Positions 4,551 to 46,661 of a DNA stretch of 51,717 nt are shown piece after piece. The stretch comes from an uncultured Bacilli bacterium (GTDB lineage Bacteria > Bacillota_I > Bacilli_A > RFN20 > DUOF01). A program made the translations under genes and the position numbers. Position 1 is the first letter of the stretch. The number at the start of each line of letters is the position of its first letter. The stretch covers positions 208,107 through 259,823 of the forward strand of contig CALVUJ010000024.1 of NCBI GenBank assembly GCA_944363575.1, read 5' to 3'. The notes beneath the pieces were generated by a model, which made no database searches, was not told where the DNA came from, and was given only the letters and a program-made list of their open reading frames with translations.

Positions 4551-6452
4551 TTACCCTAACATTATCACTATCGTACTCCCTTCCTCAATTTTCTCTCCAT
4601 ATTTAGGCAATTGATCAATAACCACATTACCATCTCCTACAAACTCAAATTTAAAATACTTAGACTTCACATCACCTTTACTTAAACCTATATAATTATC
4701 TACAAGATAACTTTTCTTATCCATCCAAGTATACTTTCTTTCAACTCCACCATCCCTTTTACTAACTCCTAAATAAGGTAACGCATCACTTAAAATAGCT
4801 TTTACTATAGGACCTGCTACTGTACCCCCATATTGAATCGCACTCTCAGGATTATCTATTGCTACATACACTACAATCTCAGGATCATCCATTGGAGCAG
4901 CCGCAATCATAGATAAATTATAATTACCCGCTTGATAAACACCATTAATTGCCTTTTGAGCAGTACCAGTCTTGCCACCTACACGATACCCTTCAAGATA
5001 AGCTGTACGCCCTCCACCAACACTAACAACATGCTCTAAAGCATCTCTCATAAGATTACTCGTCTCTTCACTAATAACCTGCCTAACAACTTCATTTTCC
5101 TTCTCATAAACTACCTCTTTAGTAGAAGTCAAAGAAACACTATCTAAAATGCTAGGAACATATAAATAACCCCCATTTATTACCGCACTAAAAGCCGTAA
5201 CTAACTGAAGAGCTGTTACACTTACACCTTGACCAAAAGCACTCGTCGCCTGCTCTAATAAATTGTAATCATCATACTTAAACATAATACCAGCACTCTC
5301 GCCCCAAATATCTATACCAGTCTTACTCCCAAAACCAAAATTAGTAATATAATTATATAAATTATCTTTACCTAACTTTTGTGCAATACTAACAAATCCT
5401 GGATTAGAAGAATTTTGTAATACCTCTAAATATGTTTGAAGCCCATGCCCTCCTTTTTTCCAAGATTTAATCCGTTGCCCCTCAACATAAACAGAACCTG
5501 TATCATAGTAAGTATCCTTATACATATCAATTTTCTTTTCCTCTAAGGCCGCAGCAAAAGAAAACACTTTAAAAGTAGAACCAGGTTCATATGATTTCCA
5601 AATAGCTAAATTACGATTATAAGTATCACTATCATAATTTTGATAATTATTAGGATTGAACGTAGGATAATTAACAATCCCAAGTATTTCTCCATTTTTA
5701 GGATTCATCGCTATCCCTATTACAGACTCTGGAGAATACTTTAAATAAGCATTATATAACTCTCTTTCCATGATACTTTGAATATTAAAATCAATTGTTA
5801 AATTTAAACTAAGCCCTGAAGATGGTGCAATAATATTAGACTCTAAATTGCTAAATAACCCTCCTTTAGCATCCATATAATAATTAAGATAACCATTACT
5901 CCCCTTTAAATAGTTATCATAATAAGCTTCTACTCCAGATAAACCCTGATTATCAATACCTACAAAACCTAAAGTATGCGCTAACATCGTTTCATAAGGA
6001 TAATATCTTCTAGAATCTCTAATCAAATAAACCCCTTCCAATCTTAACTTATTAATTTGCATAGCTACTTCATCACTAATCTTTTTCCCATTCCCTTTCA
6101 ATCTAACAATAGAAACTTTTTTATTAATCTGCTCATAAATATCTTTTGCTTCCATCTCTAAAATAGGTGCTAAAATGATACTTGTCTTAGCCTTTTCTTT
6201 AACTTGATAAGGAATAACCGATAGTGACATTGTAGGAATATTAATAGCTAAACTAACCCCATTACGATCATAAATATAACCCCTACTAGCCTCAATTGGA
6301 AAACTCCTTTGCCAAGACTCACTTGCCCCCTTTAATAACACATTATTTTTAACAATCTGCACATACCCTAGTCTAACCCCAATAATTACCATTATTAAAG
6401 AAAAAATTATCTCCAAACTAAAAATCTTTTTTATCATTGAGACTCTAATCAC
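4551..6452 (-). CDS. Class B penicillin-binding protein (transpeptidase) with C-terminal PASTA domain
   Basis: A cell-wall transpeptidase of the PBP2B/SpoVD type. It has a short cytoplasmic N-terminus, one membrane helix (about residues 8-30), a PBP dimerisation domain, a penicillin-binding domain and one PASTA domain in the last 60 residues. Active-site motifs are intact: STFK (catalytic Ser near 292), SSN (348-350) and KTGTAQ (494-). The place after mraZ-rsmH-ftsL fits the division enzyme PbpB/FtsI; the PASTA domain also fits SpoVD, and the sequence alone does not settle it. The start is taken as a GTG at 6452 preceded by GGTG six bases upstream; an ATG four codons earlier (6464) lacks an SD. 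A terminator lies between this gene and the upstream protease gene. Confidence 0.93.
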   Translation of the reverse strand: MIRVSMIKKIFSLEIIFSLIMVIIGVRLGYVQIVKNNVLLKGASESWQRSFPIEASRGYIYDRNGVSLAINIPTMSLSVIPYQVKEKAKTSIILAPILEMEAKDIYEQINKKVSIVRLKGNGKKISDEVAMQINKLRLEGVYLIRDSRRYYPYETMLAHTLGFVGIDNQGLSGVEAYYDNYLKGSNGYLNYYMDAKGGLFSNLESNIIAPSSGLSLNLTIDFNIQSIMERELYNAYLKYSPESVIGIAMNPKNGEILGIVNYPTFNPNNYQNYDSDTYNRNLAIWKSYEPGSTFKVFSFAAALEEKKIDMYKDTYYDTGSVYVEGQRIKSWKKGGHGLQTYLEVLQNSSNPGFVSIAQKLGKDNLYNYITNFGFGSKTGIDIWGESAGIMFKYDDYNLLEQATSAFGQGVSVTALQLVTAFSAVINGGYLYVPSILDSVSLTSTKEVVYEKENEVVRQVISEETSNLMRDALEHVVSVGGGRTAYLEGYRVGGKTGTAQKAINGVYQAGNYNLSMIAAAPMDDPEIVVYVAIDNPESAIQYGGTVAGPIVKAILSDALPYLGVSKRDGGVERKYTWMDKKSYLVDNYIGLSKGDVKSKYFKFEFVGDGNVVIDQLPKYGEKIEEGSTIVIMLG

Positions 6453-16048: not shown

Positions 16049-17277
16049 TATTTACCCTCCTTTAAAATAACACTAAACTTCTTTTTAAACAATTTACTAA
16101 CTTCATTAATTTCCTCATCTTTAACATTATTAATACGAGAAATAGTTTCATCTAAACTCCCTAAATTATAAAGAAAACACATTTTTTCTCTATTCAAAGA
16201 CTTAACCTGACTATCATCCTCTTTCTTTAAATTATTAATAATTTTCTTTTTACAAATCTCTAAAACACTTAAATCAATCTCACCCGCTAAATCACTAACA
16301 ATTTTATCAATTAATTCTAAAGTTTTACTATAATTTTTAGCCTCAATATTAGATTGTAAATAACAAAGCCCTCTTGAACTTAAATAATGTGCATATATTG
16401 AATAACAAAAATTATACTCTTCCCTAACAATCTTAAATAAATAATAATTAAACATTTCTACAAACACTAACATAGGATAATAATTTTCTTCTCCAATATA
16501 AACATTACACTCATATACAACAGCAATTGATGACTGATTAAAAGAAGAAGAAAATTCCTTATCTTCAGTATTTTCAATTTTCCCTTTATAAAAATAATTA
16601 TAAGAATGACGAACTTCTTTAAAAAACAAATATTCATTAACTAATTTCTCTACTTCTTCAAACTCAAAATCACCAATAACCATCACACTTTTACATAAAC
16701 TACTTAAATTTAAATAACTATCATAAAGATCTTTATTACTAACTCTCTTTAAACACTTAACATTACCTTCTAAAATAGGGAAATTACCAACAATCTCACT
16801 AACTTTTTTATTAACTACATATTCCTTATAATTATCTAAATTAATTAAATTTTGCTTATACTCACTAACTATCTCCTTAAAATACTCATTAACAAACTCT
16901 TCATCTTTAACTAATGGCTTATACAAAACTTCATTTAATACTTCAAATTGTTTTTTAAGCAAATTTTCATTATTTAAAACATAATCCTTATTTAAAGCAT
17001 TAACAAATAAAGAAAAACCCAATGTCGCTCCATAACCATTCTTATATGAAGATACCTTCATATCATATAAATCATTTAAATATTTTTTAAATGACTCCCT
17101 ACTAGAATGTACACCCGTTTTAGTAGTCAATAATTTCATAAGCAAATTATACAAAGTAATATTATCATCATTTAATTCACATTCAAAATTCAAAGCAACC
17201 TCTACTGTCTTAAATTTCTTTGTTTTAATCATTAAAAGCCTAACACCACTATCAAGAAAAATCTCTTTTCTATTCAT
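16048..17277 (-). CDS. M16 family peptidase homologue without zinc motif (YmfF-like)
   Basis: It has the length and organisation of an M16 protein, but there is no HxxEH in the N-terminal half, where 'YNLLMKLLTTKTGVHSSRES' stands instead. It is therefore probably the inactive partner of the downstream YmfH-like enzyme, as is usual in two-subunit M16 proteins. The start is the ATG at 17277, which has AGGAGG nine bases upstream and overlaps the ftsK stop (ATGAATAG). Confidence 0.85.
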   Translation of the reverse strand: MNRKEIFLDSGVRLLMIKTKKFKTVEVALNFECELNDDNITLYNLLMKLLTTKTGVHSSRESFKKYLNDLYDMKVSSYKNGYGATLGFSLFVNALNKDYVLNNENLLKKQFEVLNEVLYKPLVKDEEFVNEYFKEIVSEYKQNLINLDNYKEYVVNKKVSEIVGNFPILEGNVKCLKRVSNKDLYDSYLNLSSLCKSVMVIGDFEFEEVEKLVNEYLFFKEVRHSYNYFYKGKIENTEDKEFSSSFNQSSIAVVYECNVYIGEENYYPMLVFVEMFNYYLFKIVREEYNFCYSIYAHYLSSRGLCYLQSNIEAKNYSKTLELIDKIVSDLAGEIDLSVLEICKKKIINNLKKEDDSQVKSLNREKMCFLYNLGSLDETISRINNVKDEEINEVSKLFKKKFSVILKEGK

Positions 17278-19675
17278 CTGTTTTTTCCTCCTTATCATAA
17301 TTAACTAAAACTTCCCTAGGTTTAGCACCATTCGCACCAGAAATAATCCCATCACTCTCTAATCTATCCATCATTCTTGCCGCCCTAGCATAACCTAAAG
17401 TAAAATATCTTTGAAGTAAAGAAGTAGATGCTCTTTTATTACGAATAACAAAATCCTTAATATCTTCATATAACTTCTCATCATTATTATTCTCATCATT
17501 TATTAATAAATTATTAATTGCTTCTTTATTTTCTTCTTCTAAATTCAAAAATTCACTATCATAGTTAACTTCATATTTTTTCTTAATATAATTAACAACA
17601 TTAAATATTTCCTCATCACTAACAAAAACACCTTGCACTCTATTTAAAGTACCACTACCAGAAATATCCATAAGCATATCACCCTTACCTAAAAGTTCCT
17701 CTGCACCTGCTCGATCAATAATTGTTCTAGAATCAACTTGTGATGAAACAGAAAAAGCAATACGTGAAGGAATATTAGCCTTAATAACACCCGTAATAAC
17801 ATCTACTGATGGCCTTTGAGTTGCAACAATTAAATAAATACCTGCTGCTCTAGCTAACTGGGTAATCCTTTGAATACTTTCCTCTACTTCTTTAGCAGCC
17901 ACTAACATTAAATCTGCTAACTCATCAATAATAACAACAATATTACAAAGAAGTTTCTCACCTTTCTCTAACATAACTTTATTATAGCCTTCAATATTTC
18001 TAACCCCATTATTAGCAAATTCTTCATACCTACGATCCATCTCACTAACAACCTTCTTTAAAGCAACCGAAGCCTTTTTAGGATCCGTAACCACTGGGCA
18101 TAATAAATGAGGCATATTAGCATAAGGCAACATTTCAACTTTTTTAGGATCAATTAAAATCATTTTAACTTCTTCTGGAGTCGTTCTAAGTAGTAAAGAA
18201 ACAATCATCGAATTAATACAAACGGACTTACCACTACCAGTAGCCCCTGCCACTAATAAATGAGGCATCTTATCAATATTAATTACAACTTCTTTATTAT
18301 TTAAATCTTTACCAATCCCAACGAGTAACTTACTAGTATCATCTTTATAAGGACTAATAACCTCTTTTAAATAAACTGGATATCTTTTCTTATTAGCCAC
18401 TTCAATACCTACCGCACTCTTACCTGGAATTGGAGCCTCCATCCTTGTTTTTACAGCTGCTAATGCTAACTTCAAATCATTCTCGATGTTCACAATTGAA
18501 CTAACCCTAACCCCAATCTCAGGAACAATTTCATATCTAGTAACGCATGGCCCAATAATATAATTAGTAACGCTAGCTTTAATATTTAACTCTTGTAACT
18601 TTTGATTAATTTTCTCACAATTAACTTCTACTTCATCCTTTAACTCCATATAAGCATTATTCTCTAAATTATCTTTTAATAAACTATAAATATCACCAAC
18701 AACTATCTCTTCTACCCTATTTTCCACCTTAACTTCTTCTTTAATAAATGGTTCCTTAGGAACTACTTCTTCAACAACTTTTTCTTCAACACTCACTTCA
18801 TTTAATTCTTCATCTCCAAAAAACTCTAACCCATCTTCACTAAACTGTATATCTTCACAAGTATTTTCTTCATTATTTACCATAACAGTTTCTTCCTTAA
18901 CTTCTTCACTCACTAACTTTTCATCAACTAATTCATCAGAATCATCAAATATCTTTTCATGAAAAATATCAAAAGTAAGTTCCCCTTCTTTCTTAAGAAC
19001 TACTTCCTTAGCAATTTCTAAATTACTACTAACATCATTACTAAACTCTTTAACATCTTCTATAACTTGCTCATTTTTCTTCTTTTCTTTTCTCTTTTTA
19101 ATAAAAGAAACAACCTTCTTATAAACAAAACTTATTGGCTTTTTAAACAAAATATACAAACACCCTAATATAAATAAAACAATAACTAACCCTGCAACAA
19201 AATTACCAAGTAACGAAACTAATAAAATATACCCACCATAACCAACCAAACCACCACCAACTACATCAATTCTTCTAACATCAACCTTAAAAGCTCTTAC
19301 GGTAACTTCATCAAAATTATTTTGAAAATGATCAAACCAATTATTCAAAGAAGCCCCATCAAACTTACTTGCTCCAATAAGTAAAAATAAAATCAAAAAG
19401 ATAACAGCAACCCCATTTAACCCTAAAATAATCGTTGGTTTCTTCTTCTTAAAAAATAAATATAACCCTAAATAAATACAAAATAGTAACACGACAAAAT
19501 ACATACTACCAAATAAATAAACTAAACAATATGTCAAAAAACCTCCTAACCATCCCTGATTAAGCAAGCCTATCAAAGAAGTAATAGATAAAAGCAACCC
19601 CAAAAGAGCAACCTCTGCTTCAACAGATATCTTTTTAGGCTTTTTACTTTCATCTCTTTTCTTATCTTTAGACAC
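17270..19675 (-). CDS. FtsK/SpoIIIE DNA translocase
   Basis: It pumps chromosomal DNA through the closing septum. About four membrane helices lie in the first 190 residues. A long acidic, low-complexity linker (about 200-330) leads to the alpha/beta motor domain with Walker A GATGSGKS near residues 477-484, Walker B VVIIDELADLM, and a C-terminal gamma (KOPS-type winged helix) domain with 'ASTSLLQRYFTLGYARAARMMD'. The best start is the GTG at 19675, which has AGGTAGGTG ending six bases upstream; a GTG at 19684 lies inside that SD. Whether it serves division (FtsK) or the forespore (SpoIIIE) cannot be told. Confidence 0.95.
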   Translation of the reverse strand: MSKDKKRDESKKPKKISVEAEVALLGLLLSITSLIGLLNQGWLGGFLTYCLVYLFGSMYFVVLLFCIYLGLYLFFKKKKPTIILGLNGVAVIFLILFLLIGASKFDGASLNNWFDHFQNNFDEVTVRAFKVDVRRIDVVGGGLVGYGGYILLVSLLGNFVAGLVIVLFILGCLYILFKKPISFVYKKVVSFIKKRKEKKKNEQVIEDVKEFSNDVSSNLEIAKEVVLKKEGELTFDIFHEKIFDDSDELVDEKLVSEEVKEETVMVNNEENTCEDIQFSEDGLEFFGDEELNEVSVEEKVVEEVVPKEPFIKEEVKVENRVEEIVVGDIYSLLKDNLENNAYMELKDEVEVNCEKINQKLQELNIKASVTNYIIGPCVTRYEIVPEIGVRVSSIVNIENDLKLALAAVKTRMEAPIPGKSAVGIEVANKKRYPVYLKEVISPYKDDTSKLLVGIGKDLNNKEVVINIDKMPHLLVAGATGSGKSVCINSMIVSLLLRTTPEEVKMILIDPKKVEMLPYANMPHLLCPVVTDPKKASVALKKVVSEMDRRYEEFANNGVRNIEGYNKVMLEKGEKLLCNIVVIIDELADLMLVAAKEVEESIQRITQLARAAGIYLIVATQRPSVDVITGVIKANIPSRIAFSVSSQVDSRTIIDRAGAEELLGKGDMLMDISGSGTLNRVQGVFVSDEEIFNVVNYIKKKYEVNYDSEFLNLEEENKEAINNLLINDENNNDEKLYEDIKDFVIRNKRASTSLLQRYFTLGYARAARMMDRLESDGIISGANGAKPREVLVNYDKEEKTDE

Positions 19676-42949: not shown

Positions 42950-44251
42950 ATGGAAATAAAACGTGACCTATACTTAAATAAATTAATTAGTAAAAAAGAA
43001 AACGGACTAATTAAAGTTATTACAGGAATTAGAAGATGTGGTAAATCTTTTTTACTATTTAATATTTATCACGATTACCTTATTTCTATCGGTGTTAATA
43101 ACAATCAAATAATAGAATTATCATTAGAAGAAACACAAAACATAAAATATCGAAACCCTTTAGAACTTGATAAATATATTAGAAGTCTAATTACTGATAA
43201 AAATAAAATGTATTATGTTTTTATAGATGAAATTCAAAAAGTTGAAGAAATTCAAAACCCATACATTGAAAATCAAATTTCAAAAATAACCTTTGTAGAT
43301 ACCTTACTTGGTCTTATGAAAATTAAAAATATAGATCTTTATGTTACTGGAAGCAATTCCAAAATGTTATCTAGCGATATTTTAACAGAATTTAAGGATC
43401 GTGGAGATGAAATTAGAGTTAACCCCTTAACTTATAAAGAATTTTGTGATGCATATGGTGAAGTATCTTCTAAAACTTGGAAAGAATATATAACTTATGG
43501 AGGAATGCCTCTATCTGTTATAAAAAAAACGCATGAAGAAAAAAGTAAATATTTAAAAGATTTATTTACCAAAACTTATATAACTGATGTAATTGAAAGA
43601 CATAAGATAAAAGAAAATAAAGACTCCCTAGAAGAATTATTAAATATTGTTTCTTCTTCAATTGGTTCCCTTACTAATCCAAAAAAAATATCTGATACTT
43701 TTAAAAGTGTTAAACAAACTAATATATCCCCAACAACAATTTCTCAATATTTAGATTATTTTATCGATGCTTTTTTACTTAGCAAAGCAATGCGCTATGA
43801 TATTAAAGGTAAAAAGTATATCAATACCCCTCTTAAATACTATTTTACAGATCTTGGACTAAGAAATGCTAGGCTTAACTTTAGACAACAAGAAGAAAAC
43901 CACATCATGGAAAATATCATATATAATGAACTCCTAATTAGAGATTTTGATGTTGATGTAGGAGTCATAGAATATAACACCAAAAATGAAAAAGGCAATG
44001 GTGAAAGAAAACAATTGGAAGTAGATTTTATAGCTAATAAAGGTAGCAAAAAATATTATATTCAATCTGCACTTAATATTGATGACGACATCAAAAGGAA
44101 ACAAGAAACATTTTCTCTTACTAGAATAAATGACTCATTTAAAAAAATTGTAGTTATAAAAAACGACATATTACCATGGCATGATGAAAAAGGCATTTTA
44201 TACATTAGTATTCAAGATTTCTTATTAAAAGATGATTCCATTGATTGGTAA
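42950..44251 (+). CDS. AAA_14/DUF4143 family ATPase
   Basis: A 433-residue protein of the common archaeal/bacterial AAA_14-DUF4143 type. Walker A is GIRRCGKS near residue 26, Walker B is 'VFIDEIQKV', sensor-1-like 'LYVTGSNSKML' follows, and then 'RVNPLTYKEFCDAYG'. The C-terminal DUF4143 part contains 'YYFTDLGLRNARLNF', 'IMENIIYNELLIRDFDV' and 'EVDFIANKGSKKYYIQ', a PD-(D/E)XK nuclease-like pattern (E...D...Q). Function is not established for this family. It has a strong promoter of its own. Confidence 0.92.
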   Translation: MEIKRDLYLNKLISKKENGLIKVITGIRRCGKSFLLFNIYHDYLISIGVNNNQIIELSLEETQNIKYRNPLELDKYIRSLITDKNKMYYVFIDEIQKVEEIQNPYIENQISKITFVDTLLGLMKIKNIDLYVTGSNSKMLSSDILTEFKDRGDEIRVNPLTYKEFCDAYGEVSSKTWKEYITYGGMPLSVIKKTHEEKSKYLKDLFTKTYITDVIERHKIKENKDSLEELLNIVSSSIGSLTNPKKISDTFKSVKQTNISPTTISQYLDYFIDAFLLSKAMRYDIKGKKYINTPLKYYFTDLGLRNARLNFRQQEENHIMENIIYNELLIRDFDVDVGVIEYNTKNEKGNGERKQLEVDFIANKGSKKYYIQSALNIDDDIKRKQETFSLTRINDSFKKIVVIKNDILPWHDEKGILYISIQDFLLKDDSIDW

Positions 44252-44366
44252 ATACTTCAGCATAGTGGTAAGTAAAAACTTACTCTTACGAATAACCTTT
44301 TTATTTTCGCATTAACTTTTAAAACTAACATTAACACACTTTTATCAACATTTTGAAACTAGTATA

Positions 44367-44395
44367 TTTAACTTAACTATTGCATATATTATGAT
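44367..44395 (+). promoter_or_regulatory. Promoter of the candidate RNA
   Basis: -35 TTTAAC (44367-44372), 17-bp spacer, -10 TATGAT (44390-44395). A shifted pair (CTTAAC and TATAAA at 44395-44400) also has 17 bp. The start would be at about 44402-44407. Confidence 0.55.
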
Positions 44396-44401
44396 ATAAA
44401 T

Positions 44402-44579
44402 AGGTTAAGGAGGAACACTCATCCCAAGTAAAAAAAATCAAAGTGTACCATTTATATGTGTTGAATACTAACTAGTCTTAGGATCCTAATTATAAATGCG
44501 AAGCTTAATATCCTGTAAAAAATGGATAGTAAAACGTCACTTAATCTTGAAAATAACTAGGATAAAACCTAGTTTTTTT
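44402..44579 (+). ncRNA. Candidate structured RNA, about 178 nt (6S-like or leader RNA)
   Basis: Nested pairings make a rod: AGGTTAAG (44402-44409) with CTTAATCT (44540-44547); ACTcATCC (44417-44424) with GGATAGT (44524-44530) with one bulge; a large open loop of about 24 bases on each side; CATTTATA (44449-44456) with TATAAATG (44491-44498); and the apical palindrome TTAGGATCCTAA (44478-44489). It ends in a clean terminator. Length, closing stem and large central bubble recall 6S RNA, but no conserved 6S sequence is recognised. It could instead be a leader of the HIT gene: AACTAG (44470-44475) can pair with CTAGTT of the terminator and so act as an antiterminator. Confidence 0.5.
44555..44579 (+). 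terminator. Terminator of the candidate RNA
   Basis: AACTAGG and CCTAGTT form a 7-bp stem with a 6-base loop followed by T7. It is 38 bases upstream of the HIT start codon, and no second promoter is evident between them. Confidence 0.88.
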
Positions 44580-44617
44580 CATCTTTTTAAGTCATAATAT
44601 AAAAAAGGAGAGATATT

Positions 44618-45022
44618 ATGGAAAATTGTATTTTTTGTAAAATCATAAATAAAGAAATACCTTGCTATAAAATATATGAAGATGAATATACTTTAGCTTT
44701 TTTAGATATTGCTAAAGATGTAGATGGACACACTCTTGTTATTCCTAAGAAACACTGCACTAATATTCTAGATGCCGATGAAGAAACTATCAACCATCTA
44801 ATGCACACTATACAACTAGTATCTAATCATTATATAAATAAATGTGGATATGCAGGAATTAACATTTTAAACAACAATAATGCTTGTGCTGAACAATCAG
44901 TTATGCACTTACACTTTCACATTATCCCACGTAATGAAAATGATCAAATTTATGTCTATCCTAAATTCCCTGGAGCTAAATACCCTATAGAAGACACTCT
45001 AAAAAAACTAAAAATTAATTAG
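44618..45022 (+). CDS. HIT-family nucleotide hydrolase
   Basis: A 134-residue HIT protein. The active-site triad motif is H97-L-H-F-H101 in 'SVMHLHFHIIPR' (HxHxHxx), and the N-terminal 'CIFCKIINKEIP' is typical, with Cys4 and Cys7 as likely zinc ligands. Members split AMP-linked substrates such as dinucleoside polyphosphates. SD is AAAGGAGAG. Transcription may come by read-through from the candidate RNA. Confidence 0.95.
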   Translation: MENCIFCKIINKEIPCYKIYEDEYTLAFLDIAKDVDGHTLVIPKKHCTNILDADEETINHLMHTIQLVSNHYINKCGYAGINILNNNNACAEQSVMHLHFHIIPRNENDQIYVYPKFPGAKYPIEDTLKKLKIN

Positions 45023-45066: not shown

Positions 45067-45357
45067 ATGTCTAAAATAAAATGCGAACAAGAAAAGTGCA
45101 AATACAACAGCAATAAATATTGCATGAAAGATGGAATTTACGTAGATAAACATGCTTCATGTGATTCTTATGAAGAAGGAGCAAAAACATCTAATACTAA
45201 CTTTGAAATTAGCTCTTTAGAATCTAAAGACAATCAAATAGTATGTAATGCTACCCATTGTGTTTACAACAATCACAAAGACTGTACAATAACACATTTA
45301 AACATAGGAAAAGAAAAAGATTCTGCTAATTGTATAGACTTTGAAGAAATGGATTAA
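45067..45357 (+). CDS. Protein with two DUF1540 units
   Basis: A 96-residue, Cys-rich protein. Two copies of the DUF1540 pattern are visible: C-x4-C-x-Y-N-x5-C ... A-x-C in residues 6-35 and again in about residues 59-92 (C-x4-C-V-Y-N-x5-C ... A-N-C). Such units probably bind a metal; function is unknown. It is 44 bases after the HIT gene and followed by a strong terminator, so HIT and this gene likely form one unit. Confidence 0.88.
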
Positions 45358-45388: not shown

Positions 45389-45470
45389 ACATTTACCCAT
45401 TTTTTCAAAAATTGTTCATTTAACTAGTTCAACATCATTTTGCTACATAACTTGTAGTGAGGTGAAAAAA

Positions 45471-46661
45471 ATGAATAATTCATGTCCCAATCCATGTATG
45501 AATGGAGATAATTGTGGTATAAGAAGATGTTGTCATAACCATAACAGCTGCTTTCCAAACAACCGTTGTTGCCCTCTTGTTATTCCTGGTCCTCCTGGTC
45601 CACCAGGACAAAATGCTACGATATCAATAGGAACAACTACTACTGGTTCCCCAAACACCCCTGCTATGGTAACAAACACAGGTACTTCTACCAATGCTAT
45701 TTTAAACTTTACTATTCCTAGAGGTGCTACTGGTCCTCAGGGTCCTCAAGGGCCACAGGGTCCACAAGGGCCTCAAGGTCCTCAAGGTCCTCAAGGGCCA
45801 CAGGGTCCTCAAGGGCCTCAAGGTCCACAAGGTCCTGCAGGTGAAGATGGTGAAGATGGTGAAGCTGCCACTATAACTGTTGGAACAACTACTACTGGCG
45901 AACCTGGTACTGATGCTTCAGTTACTAATGTAGGTACTGACACTAATGCTATCTTAAACTTCGTTATCCCTAGAGGTGAAGATGGTGAAGATGGTGAAGC
46001 TGCTACTGTAACTGTTGGAACAACTACTACTGGTGATCCTGGTACTGATGCTTCAGTTACTAACGTAGGTACTGATACTGATGCCATCTTAGATTTCGTT
46101 ATCCCTAGAGGTGCTGACGGTGAAGCTGCTACTGTAACTGTTGGAACAACTACTACTGGCGAACCTGGTACAGACGCTTCAGTTACTAACGTAGGTACTG
46201 ATACTAATGTCATCTTAAACTTCGTTATCCCTAGAGGTGCTGATGGTACTCCTGCTACAATTGCTGTAAACACTACAAAAACAGGTGAACCAGGAACAGA
46301 AGCATATGTTACAAATTCCGGTACTGACAAAGAAGTAATATTGGAATTTGTAATTCCTAGAGGTAATGCTGGTATCGATGGTACAAATGGTACAAATGGT
46401 GTAGATGGACTTGCTGCTACTGTACAAGTAGGTACAACCACTACCGGTGAACCAGGAACAGAAGCAATGGTTACTAACTCAGGAACAGAAAATAACGCAA
46501 TCTTAAACTTTACTATCCCACGTGGTGAATGTTGTAAAATAAAACCAGGAAAACATGTAAAAACTGTAAAACATGGAGCTTCTTTACAAGAAGTAACAGA
46601 AACTTTAAACGAACTAATAACTTCTTTAACTAACGCTGGTTTTCTTGAAGCACAACATTAA
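45471..46661 (+). CDS. Collagen-like surface (exosporium-type) protein
   Basis: Residues 1-40 are Cys/Asn-rich. A GPPGPPG run follows, then eleven GPQ triplets plus GPA, a true collagen (Gly-X-Y) stretch. Six modules of about 38 residues alternate with it, each ending in ILNFxIPRG and carrying 'VGTTTTGxPGTxAxVTNxGT'. The C-terminal 50 residues are a helical tail with a CC pair. Such collagen-like proteins coat spores or cells in Bacillota; with the ger and SleB-like genes near, an exosporium role is plausible. The ATG at 45471 has GAGGTG six bases upstream. The repeats make this gene clearly richer in G+C than its surroundings. Confidence 0.9.

Follow-up and report, generated by a model that had tools for sequence, protein, structure and literature searches.

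The window analyzed here, the whole stretch of 51,717 nucleotides, comes from the genome of an uncultured Bacilli bacterium (hereafter G000). As the original prediction had stated, a gap of 366 bp (44252–44617) separates two of its open reading frames (42950–44251 and 44618–45022), with an AAA_14/DUF4143 gene on one side and a HIT-domain gene on the other. Within this gap, on the plus strand, is a free-standing RNA gene of about 180 nt that possesses a terminator of its own, and its predicted transcript including the terminator spans 44402–44581. The intrinsic terminator (44555–44581, plus strand) consists of a hairpin at 44555–44574 plus a T-run; it is the only such site in 1.4 kb, where shuffled sequences give 0.3, and the terminator proposed earlier is thus borne out. 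A promoter had been proposed as well, and a suitable pair does exist: a consensus scan identified the promoter-like site TTAACT-16 nt-TATGAT at 44368–44395 on the plus strand, 7 nt before the predicted 5′ end, and we infer a transcription start near 44402. Such sites are, however, no commoner in the scan than expected by chance (9 against 9.7 in shuffled sequences), which makes this element weak evidence when taken alone. Further along the window, a Cys-rich DUF1540 protein (45067–45357) adjoins a collagen-like protein (45462–46661) that contains G-P-Q repeats and repeated TTTGxPGTxAxVTNxGT blocks.

A blastn search of the window RNA against 58 relatives revealed further copies. The second copy in G000 (G000:C22:39557–39709; 82% identity, E 2.5e-35) directly follows aspS, and a relative from the same family, G001 (JAFWYE010000006.1, “Bacilli bacterium isolate RGIG6178”, sheep rectum), carries two tandem copies (E 4.5e-24 and 5.7e-17), one of which, G001b, directly precedes a DUF896-like/transketolase gene. 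The tandem pair is located on the minus strand of locus L022 (G001:C1) at 4824–4962 and 5070–5206, separated by about 110 nt and flanked by a hisS-like gene and the DUF896-like/transketolase fusion; the two G000 copies are far apart. All four copies have their own terminator, with sequences unrelated between copies, and share the closing stem as well as an apical arm whose core reads GUGUUGAAYACUA...UUAGGAUCCUAAUUAUA. Since identity between copies is higher within a genome (80%) than between genomes (74–77%), the sequences suggest that each genome duplicated its own copy separately, or that gene conversion has occurred between copies.

6S RNA is widespread in bacteria, where it binds RNA polymerase and lowers transcription. 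The original prediction noted that the rod, the bubble and the length of the present RNA recall 6S RNA, and also that no known motif is recognized; both remarks proved correct. At gathering scores Rfam matched nothing in the window, and at E ≤ 10 nothing in the gap; at the latter threshold neither the 6S model RF00013 nor the raiA RNA model RF03072 had a match over the whole G000 genome, nor did RF00013 at the other three copies. Where the Rfam comparison suggested earlier (6S, raiA and riboswitches) thus remained without a match at E ≤ 10, 6S RNA was recovered by a model of the lineage itself. The connection appears from both directions. A model built from the four copies only (R1) and searched over 279 genomes of the order matches these copies and then, as the best further match, G007:C4:429974 (E 0.055), which is a 6S RNA according to RF00013 (38.1 bits, E 2e-6), directly precedes transketolase and has GGUGUUGAAAGCUAA...UUAGGAUCCUAA in common with the window RNA. 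Another R1 match, G181:C42 (L026, E 0.086), showed no 6S core on visual inspection and was set aside. Conversely, the covariance model R2 was built from 24 6S RNAs that RF00013 had detected in the order, leaving out all four copies, and its top match in the whole 1.13-Mb G000 genome is the aspS-linked copy (45.1 bits, E 1.8e-8), followed in second place by the window RNA (44403–44546, 32.2 bits, E 3.4e-5); the third match has an E-value of 5.0. For G001, R2 places the tandem copies first and second (E 3.3e-4 and 1.4e-3), ahead of a third match at 4.5. Through this lineage model the window RNA is homologous to accepted 6S RNAs.

The E-values of R2 are approximate, and matches can be favored by AT-rich composition. 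When R2 was applied across the order at E ≤ 0.01, with one place counted per genome and filters strict enough to lose the second G000 copy as well, which makes copy numbers lower bounds, 65 of 279 genomes were detected; the other 214 gave no match, and a composition artefact is therefore disfavored. RF00013 finds 29 of the 279 genomes at E ≤ 1, only two of them above its curated cut-off. The window RNA does not reach this cut-off either, and because 27 of the 29 detected genomes miss it, the cut-off reflects a limit of the model rather than a defining trait of 6S RNA. It follows that a curated 6S family for this order is missing and that Rfam overlooks most of the 6S RNAs that can be detected there. 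The 17-nt-rich apical core agrees column by column with the 6S RNAs of the order. A search of about 85,000 species genomes with the pattern GTGTTGAANRCTA-N{2,14}-TTAGGATCCTAA returned 16 stretches, all of which are R2 matches at E ≤ 1.7e-4 and four of which exceed the Rfam 6S cut-off; as the pattern was designed on the window RNA and G007, this result speaks for its specificity and not for independence. Thirteen of the 16 stretches directly precede a gene homologous to the ThiF/TcdA-like one of L079, which by our own identification from its sequence would be tcdA/yrvM.

Gene order is informative in the same respect. Outside family f4, 15 of 16 RF00013 loci directly precede transketolase, one of these 15 (G004) with the arrangement aspS-6S-tkt. 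The 6S-1 gene (bsrA) of B. subtilis lies between aspS and yrvM (PMC11077062), and tcdA/yrvM on the 3′ side of the core-pattern stretches reproduces this arrangement. Neighborhoods of 6S type are seen for the sister copy (aspS) and for G001b (transketolase), and the window copy is found between the AAA_14 and HIT genes. To our knowledge, the site before the HIT gene is not a known 6S locus.

The fold of the RNA agrees with this assignment. Its minimum free energy structure (44402–44581) has −34.4 kcal/mol and a z-score of −2.16, and the fold check proposed earlier is in this sense favorable, but 8 of 200 shuffled sequences fold equally well, so that the value is modest by itself. Closing stem P1 is formed by AGGUUAAG (44402–44409) and CUUAAUCU (44540–44547), as found in the fold and the copy alignment and supported by covariation. 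The apical stem pairs AUUUAUA (44450–44456) with UAUAAAU (44491–44497), and here the sister copy has the compensatory pair ACUUAUA/UAUAAGU. Above it lies the 6S apical core GUGUUGAA-UACUAACUAGUCUUAGGAUCCUAA (44458–44489), near-identical in the 6S RNAs of the order and at the tcdA-linked 6S loci, which contains a further apical hairpin (44468–44471/44478–44481). The 3′ strand of the central bubble forms the hairpin UAUCC...GGAUA (44509–44528, arms 44509–44513/44524–44528) in the predicted fold; it is present in the 6S RNAs of the order, and such a hairpin has been reported for B. subtilis 6S-1 (PMC8876501). All these elements are on the plus strand. The palindrome TTAGGATCCTAA was considered as a dimerization site, but as a hairpin arm together with GAUCCUAA it is accounted for by the 6S apical core and needs no separate role. 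A possible AACAC/GUGUU pseudoknot is invariant across the four copies and absent from the 6S consensus.

Compensatory changes among relatives, the evidence that the original prediction had called for, were found. In an R2-fitted alignment of 19 distinct sequences including the family of the window, where fitting to the structure itself favors pairing, 91.3% of cells are paired and 27 of 35 pairs show double changes, a result attained by none of 500 shuffles; neither shuffled nor slid versions approach the observed pairing. Helix 1, the closing stem, is paired in 93% of cells. The four copies alone give 85.6% with nine double-change pairs, a value reached by 6 of 500 shuffles, and in them helix 3, on the bubble's inner edge, pairs in only 71% of cells. 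The nested helices claimed at the outset are accordingly borne out by the fold together with the compensatory changes that both the closing and the apical stem show, and fold and covariation agree on the rod expected of a 6S RNA (approximately 150–200 nt, with a closing stem, a large central bubble, an apical arm and a terminal hairpin). The stretch from 44402 to about 44581 thus very probably encodes a divergent 6S RNA that has a paralogue elsewhere in its genome. That it is a 6S RNA is almost certain, and this assignment rests on homology within the order, the architecture with its covariation, the neighborhoods of the sister copies, and the terminator of its own. Judging from homology, the RNA would fold into the rod with closing stem, open central bubble and apical arm, mimic an open promoter and bind the housekeeping sigma-A RNA polymerase holoenzyme; the bound 6S RNA would repress sigma-A transcription until the polymerase copied the 5′ bubble strand into a short pRNA, upon which it would be released.

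It is the 5′ half that has diverged. In all four copies (window, L021, L022) the block GTTAAGGAGGAACACTYATC replaces GCGUUUCCGACAU of the order, and it is not seen in the 6S RNAs of other families; the UUUCC element of the order's 6S RNAs is absent from the 5′ bubble strand of the four copies. In the window this block, invariant in the four-copy alignment, occupies 44403–44423 on the plus strand and includes the Shine-Dalgarno-like AAGGAGG at 44407, exactly where the original prediction had placed it. It is possible that the block serves as pRNA template. Because it ends where conservation stops, as a template would, pRNA synthesis might start near 44423–44425, a position that we propose with low confidence. 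In lactic acid bacteria and other groups, a GG has been reported as a hallmark of pRNAs (PMC8414754). The corresponding template CC (GG at pRNA positions 4/5 or 5/6) could be supplied by CCC at 44423–44425 (CAUCCC) in the window copy, whereas the remaining three carry UCGC there, so that the hallmark is encodable by the window copy alone. A more radical proposal, which we consider improbable, is that the 5′ half of the 6S RNA has been rebuilt, with the block GUUAAGGAGGAACACUYAUC replacing the template and giving anti-Shine-Dalgarno-like pRNAs or contacting the ribosome, and with the paralogues sharing the work. The diverged template region is a natural set of variants on which the need for individual parts of 6S RNA could be tested.

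Some of these features invite other readings. The window copy could be a decaying, non-functional paralogue, with the aspS-linked copy doing the work, and three features point in this direction: its R2 score is lower (32.2 against 45.1 bits), its inner helix contains a C-A mismatch, and it reads GUAAAAC at the site that is GUUAAAC in the remaining copies. Since these differences exist, the window copy may be the minor one; outright decay is improbable, for it keeps the promoter-like site, a clean terminator, the closing stem and the full apical core, and in the apical stem it differs from its sister by the compensatory U-A/C-G change. The original prediction regarded the element as a candidate new structured RNA, and a new class resembling 6S RNA by convergence would explain both the silence of Rfam and a 5′ half unlike that of the order's 6S RNAs. 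We consider this very unlikely, as a 6S model made without the four copies puts them first genome-wide, the apical core is shared and sister copies occupy 6S loci; the homology by R2 and the conserved architecture mark the RNA as a divergent 6S RNA, and the claim of novelty was mistaken.

Two readings tie the element to translation or to the adjoining gene. A cis-acting leader or attenuator of the HIT gene had been envisaged in which AACTAG (44470–44475) acts as anti-terminator strand; it does pair with the 3′ arm of the terminator in the window and can do so in the second copy if one G-U is allowed, and the HIT start codon is only 43 bp 3′ of the terminator hairpin. A riboswitch or attenuator would be recognized by one conserved class of downstream gene, whereas the four copies stand beside different genes, those 3′ of the other copies being a YabP/YqfC-like gene, DUF896-transketolase, or another copy. 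As both G001 copies lack AACTAG, the terminators are unrelated and AACTAG is part of the 6S apical hairpin, this reading is unsupported and highly improbable. The perfect Shine-Dalgarno core kept in all four copies is likewise what gave appeal to a short open reading frame of 16 codons beginning at ATC after AAGGAGG. Across the copies this frame runs for 16, 14, 21 and 5 codons, reaching a stop after five in one of them, and encodes unrelated residues, so it is not conserved; its start would be ATC, and substitutions preserve base pairs rather than codons, which leaves the peptide next to no chance.

A divergent 6S RNA, the reading that we prefer, can be compared with known examples. Transketolase-linked 6S RNAs of the order, which lie upstream of that gene (e.g., G007:C4:429974–430120), resemble it in length, closing stem, open 5′ bubble strand, 3′-bubble hairpin, apical core GUGUUGAA...GGAUCCUAA and detection by R2, and G001b occupies the transketolase locus itself. 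The present family (f1) differs in lacking the GCGUUUCC-ACAU element and the 3′-strand CCCACC motif, in possessing GTTAAGGAGGAACACTYATC, in being AT-richer and in having two copies. B. subtilis similarly has two paralogues, 6S-1 (bsrA) and 6S-2 (bsrB), one of them after aspS, and its 6S-1 is a rod with a 3′-bubble hairpin (PMC8876501, PMC11077062), whereas the sequences of the present family are beyond the reach of RF00013 at E ≤ 10 and their template is not recognizably of 6S-1 type. A parallel in terms of detection is Weissella, whose lineage-specific 6S RNA is hardly found by covariance-based search, is supported by synteny, and was shown to be transcribed from the syntenic region (PMC8414754); that case belongs to Lactobacillales, with a rarA/uspA locus and RNA-seq support. 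In the open-licence literature we found neither a paper joining 6S RNA with RF39 (our guess for the order) nor a description of a transketolase-linked 6S locus.

With this finding, 6S RNA no longer seems to be missing from an uncultured lineage of Bacilli with small genomes, and claims of reduced Bacilli without 6S RNA need rechecking. Two smaller genomes of the same family (G002 and G003, 0.8–0.9 Mb) gave no credible 6S RNA with R1 or R2, which would reflect loss or further divergence; G003 has no transketolase match either. In G000 (G000:C22:16973–17152 and 17118–19079; L064, L067) and in G002, a separate frame that overlaps the transketolase frame encodes the DUF896-like N-terminal part of this enzyme, whereas in G001 the two are fused (L022:2621–4747).
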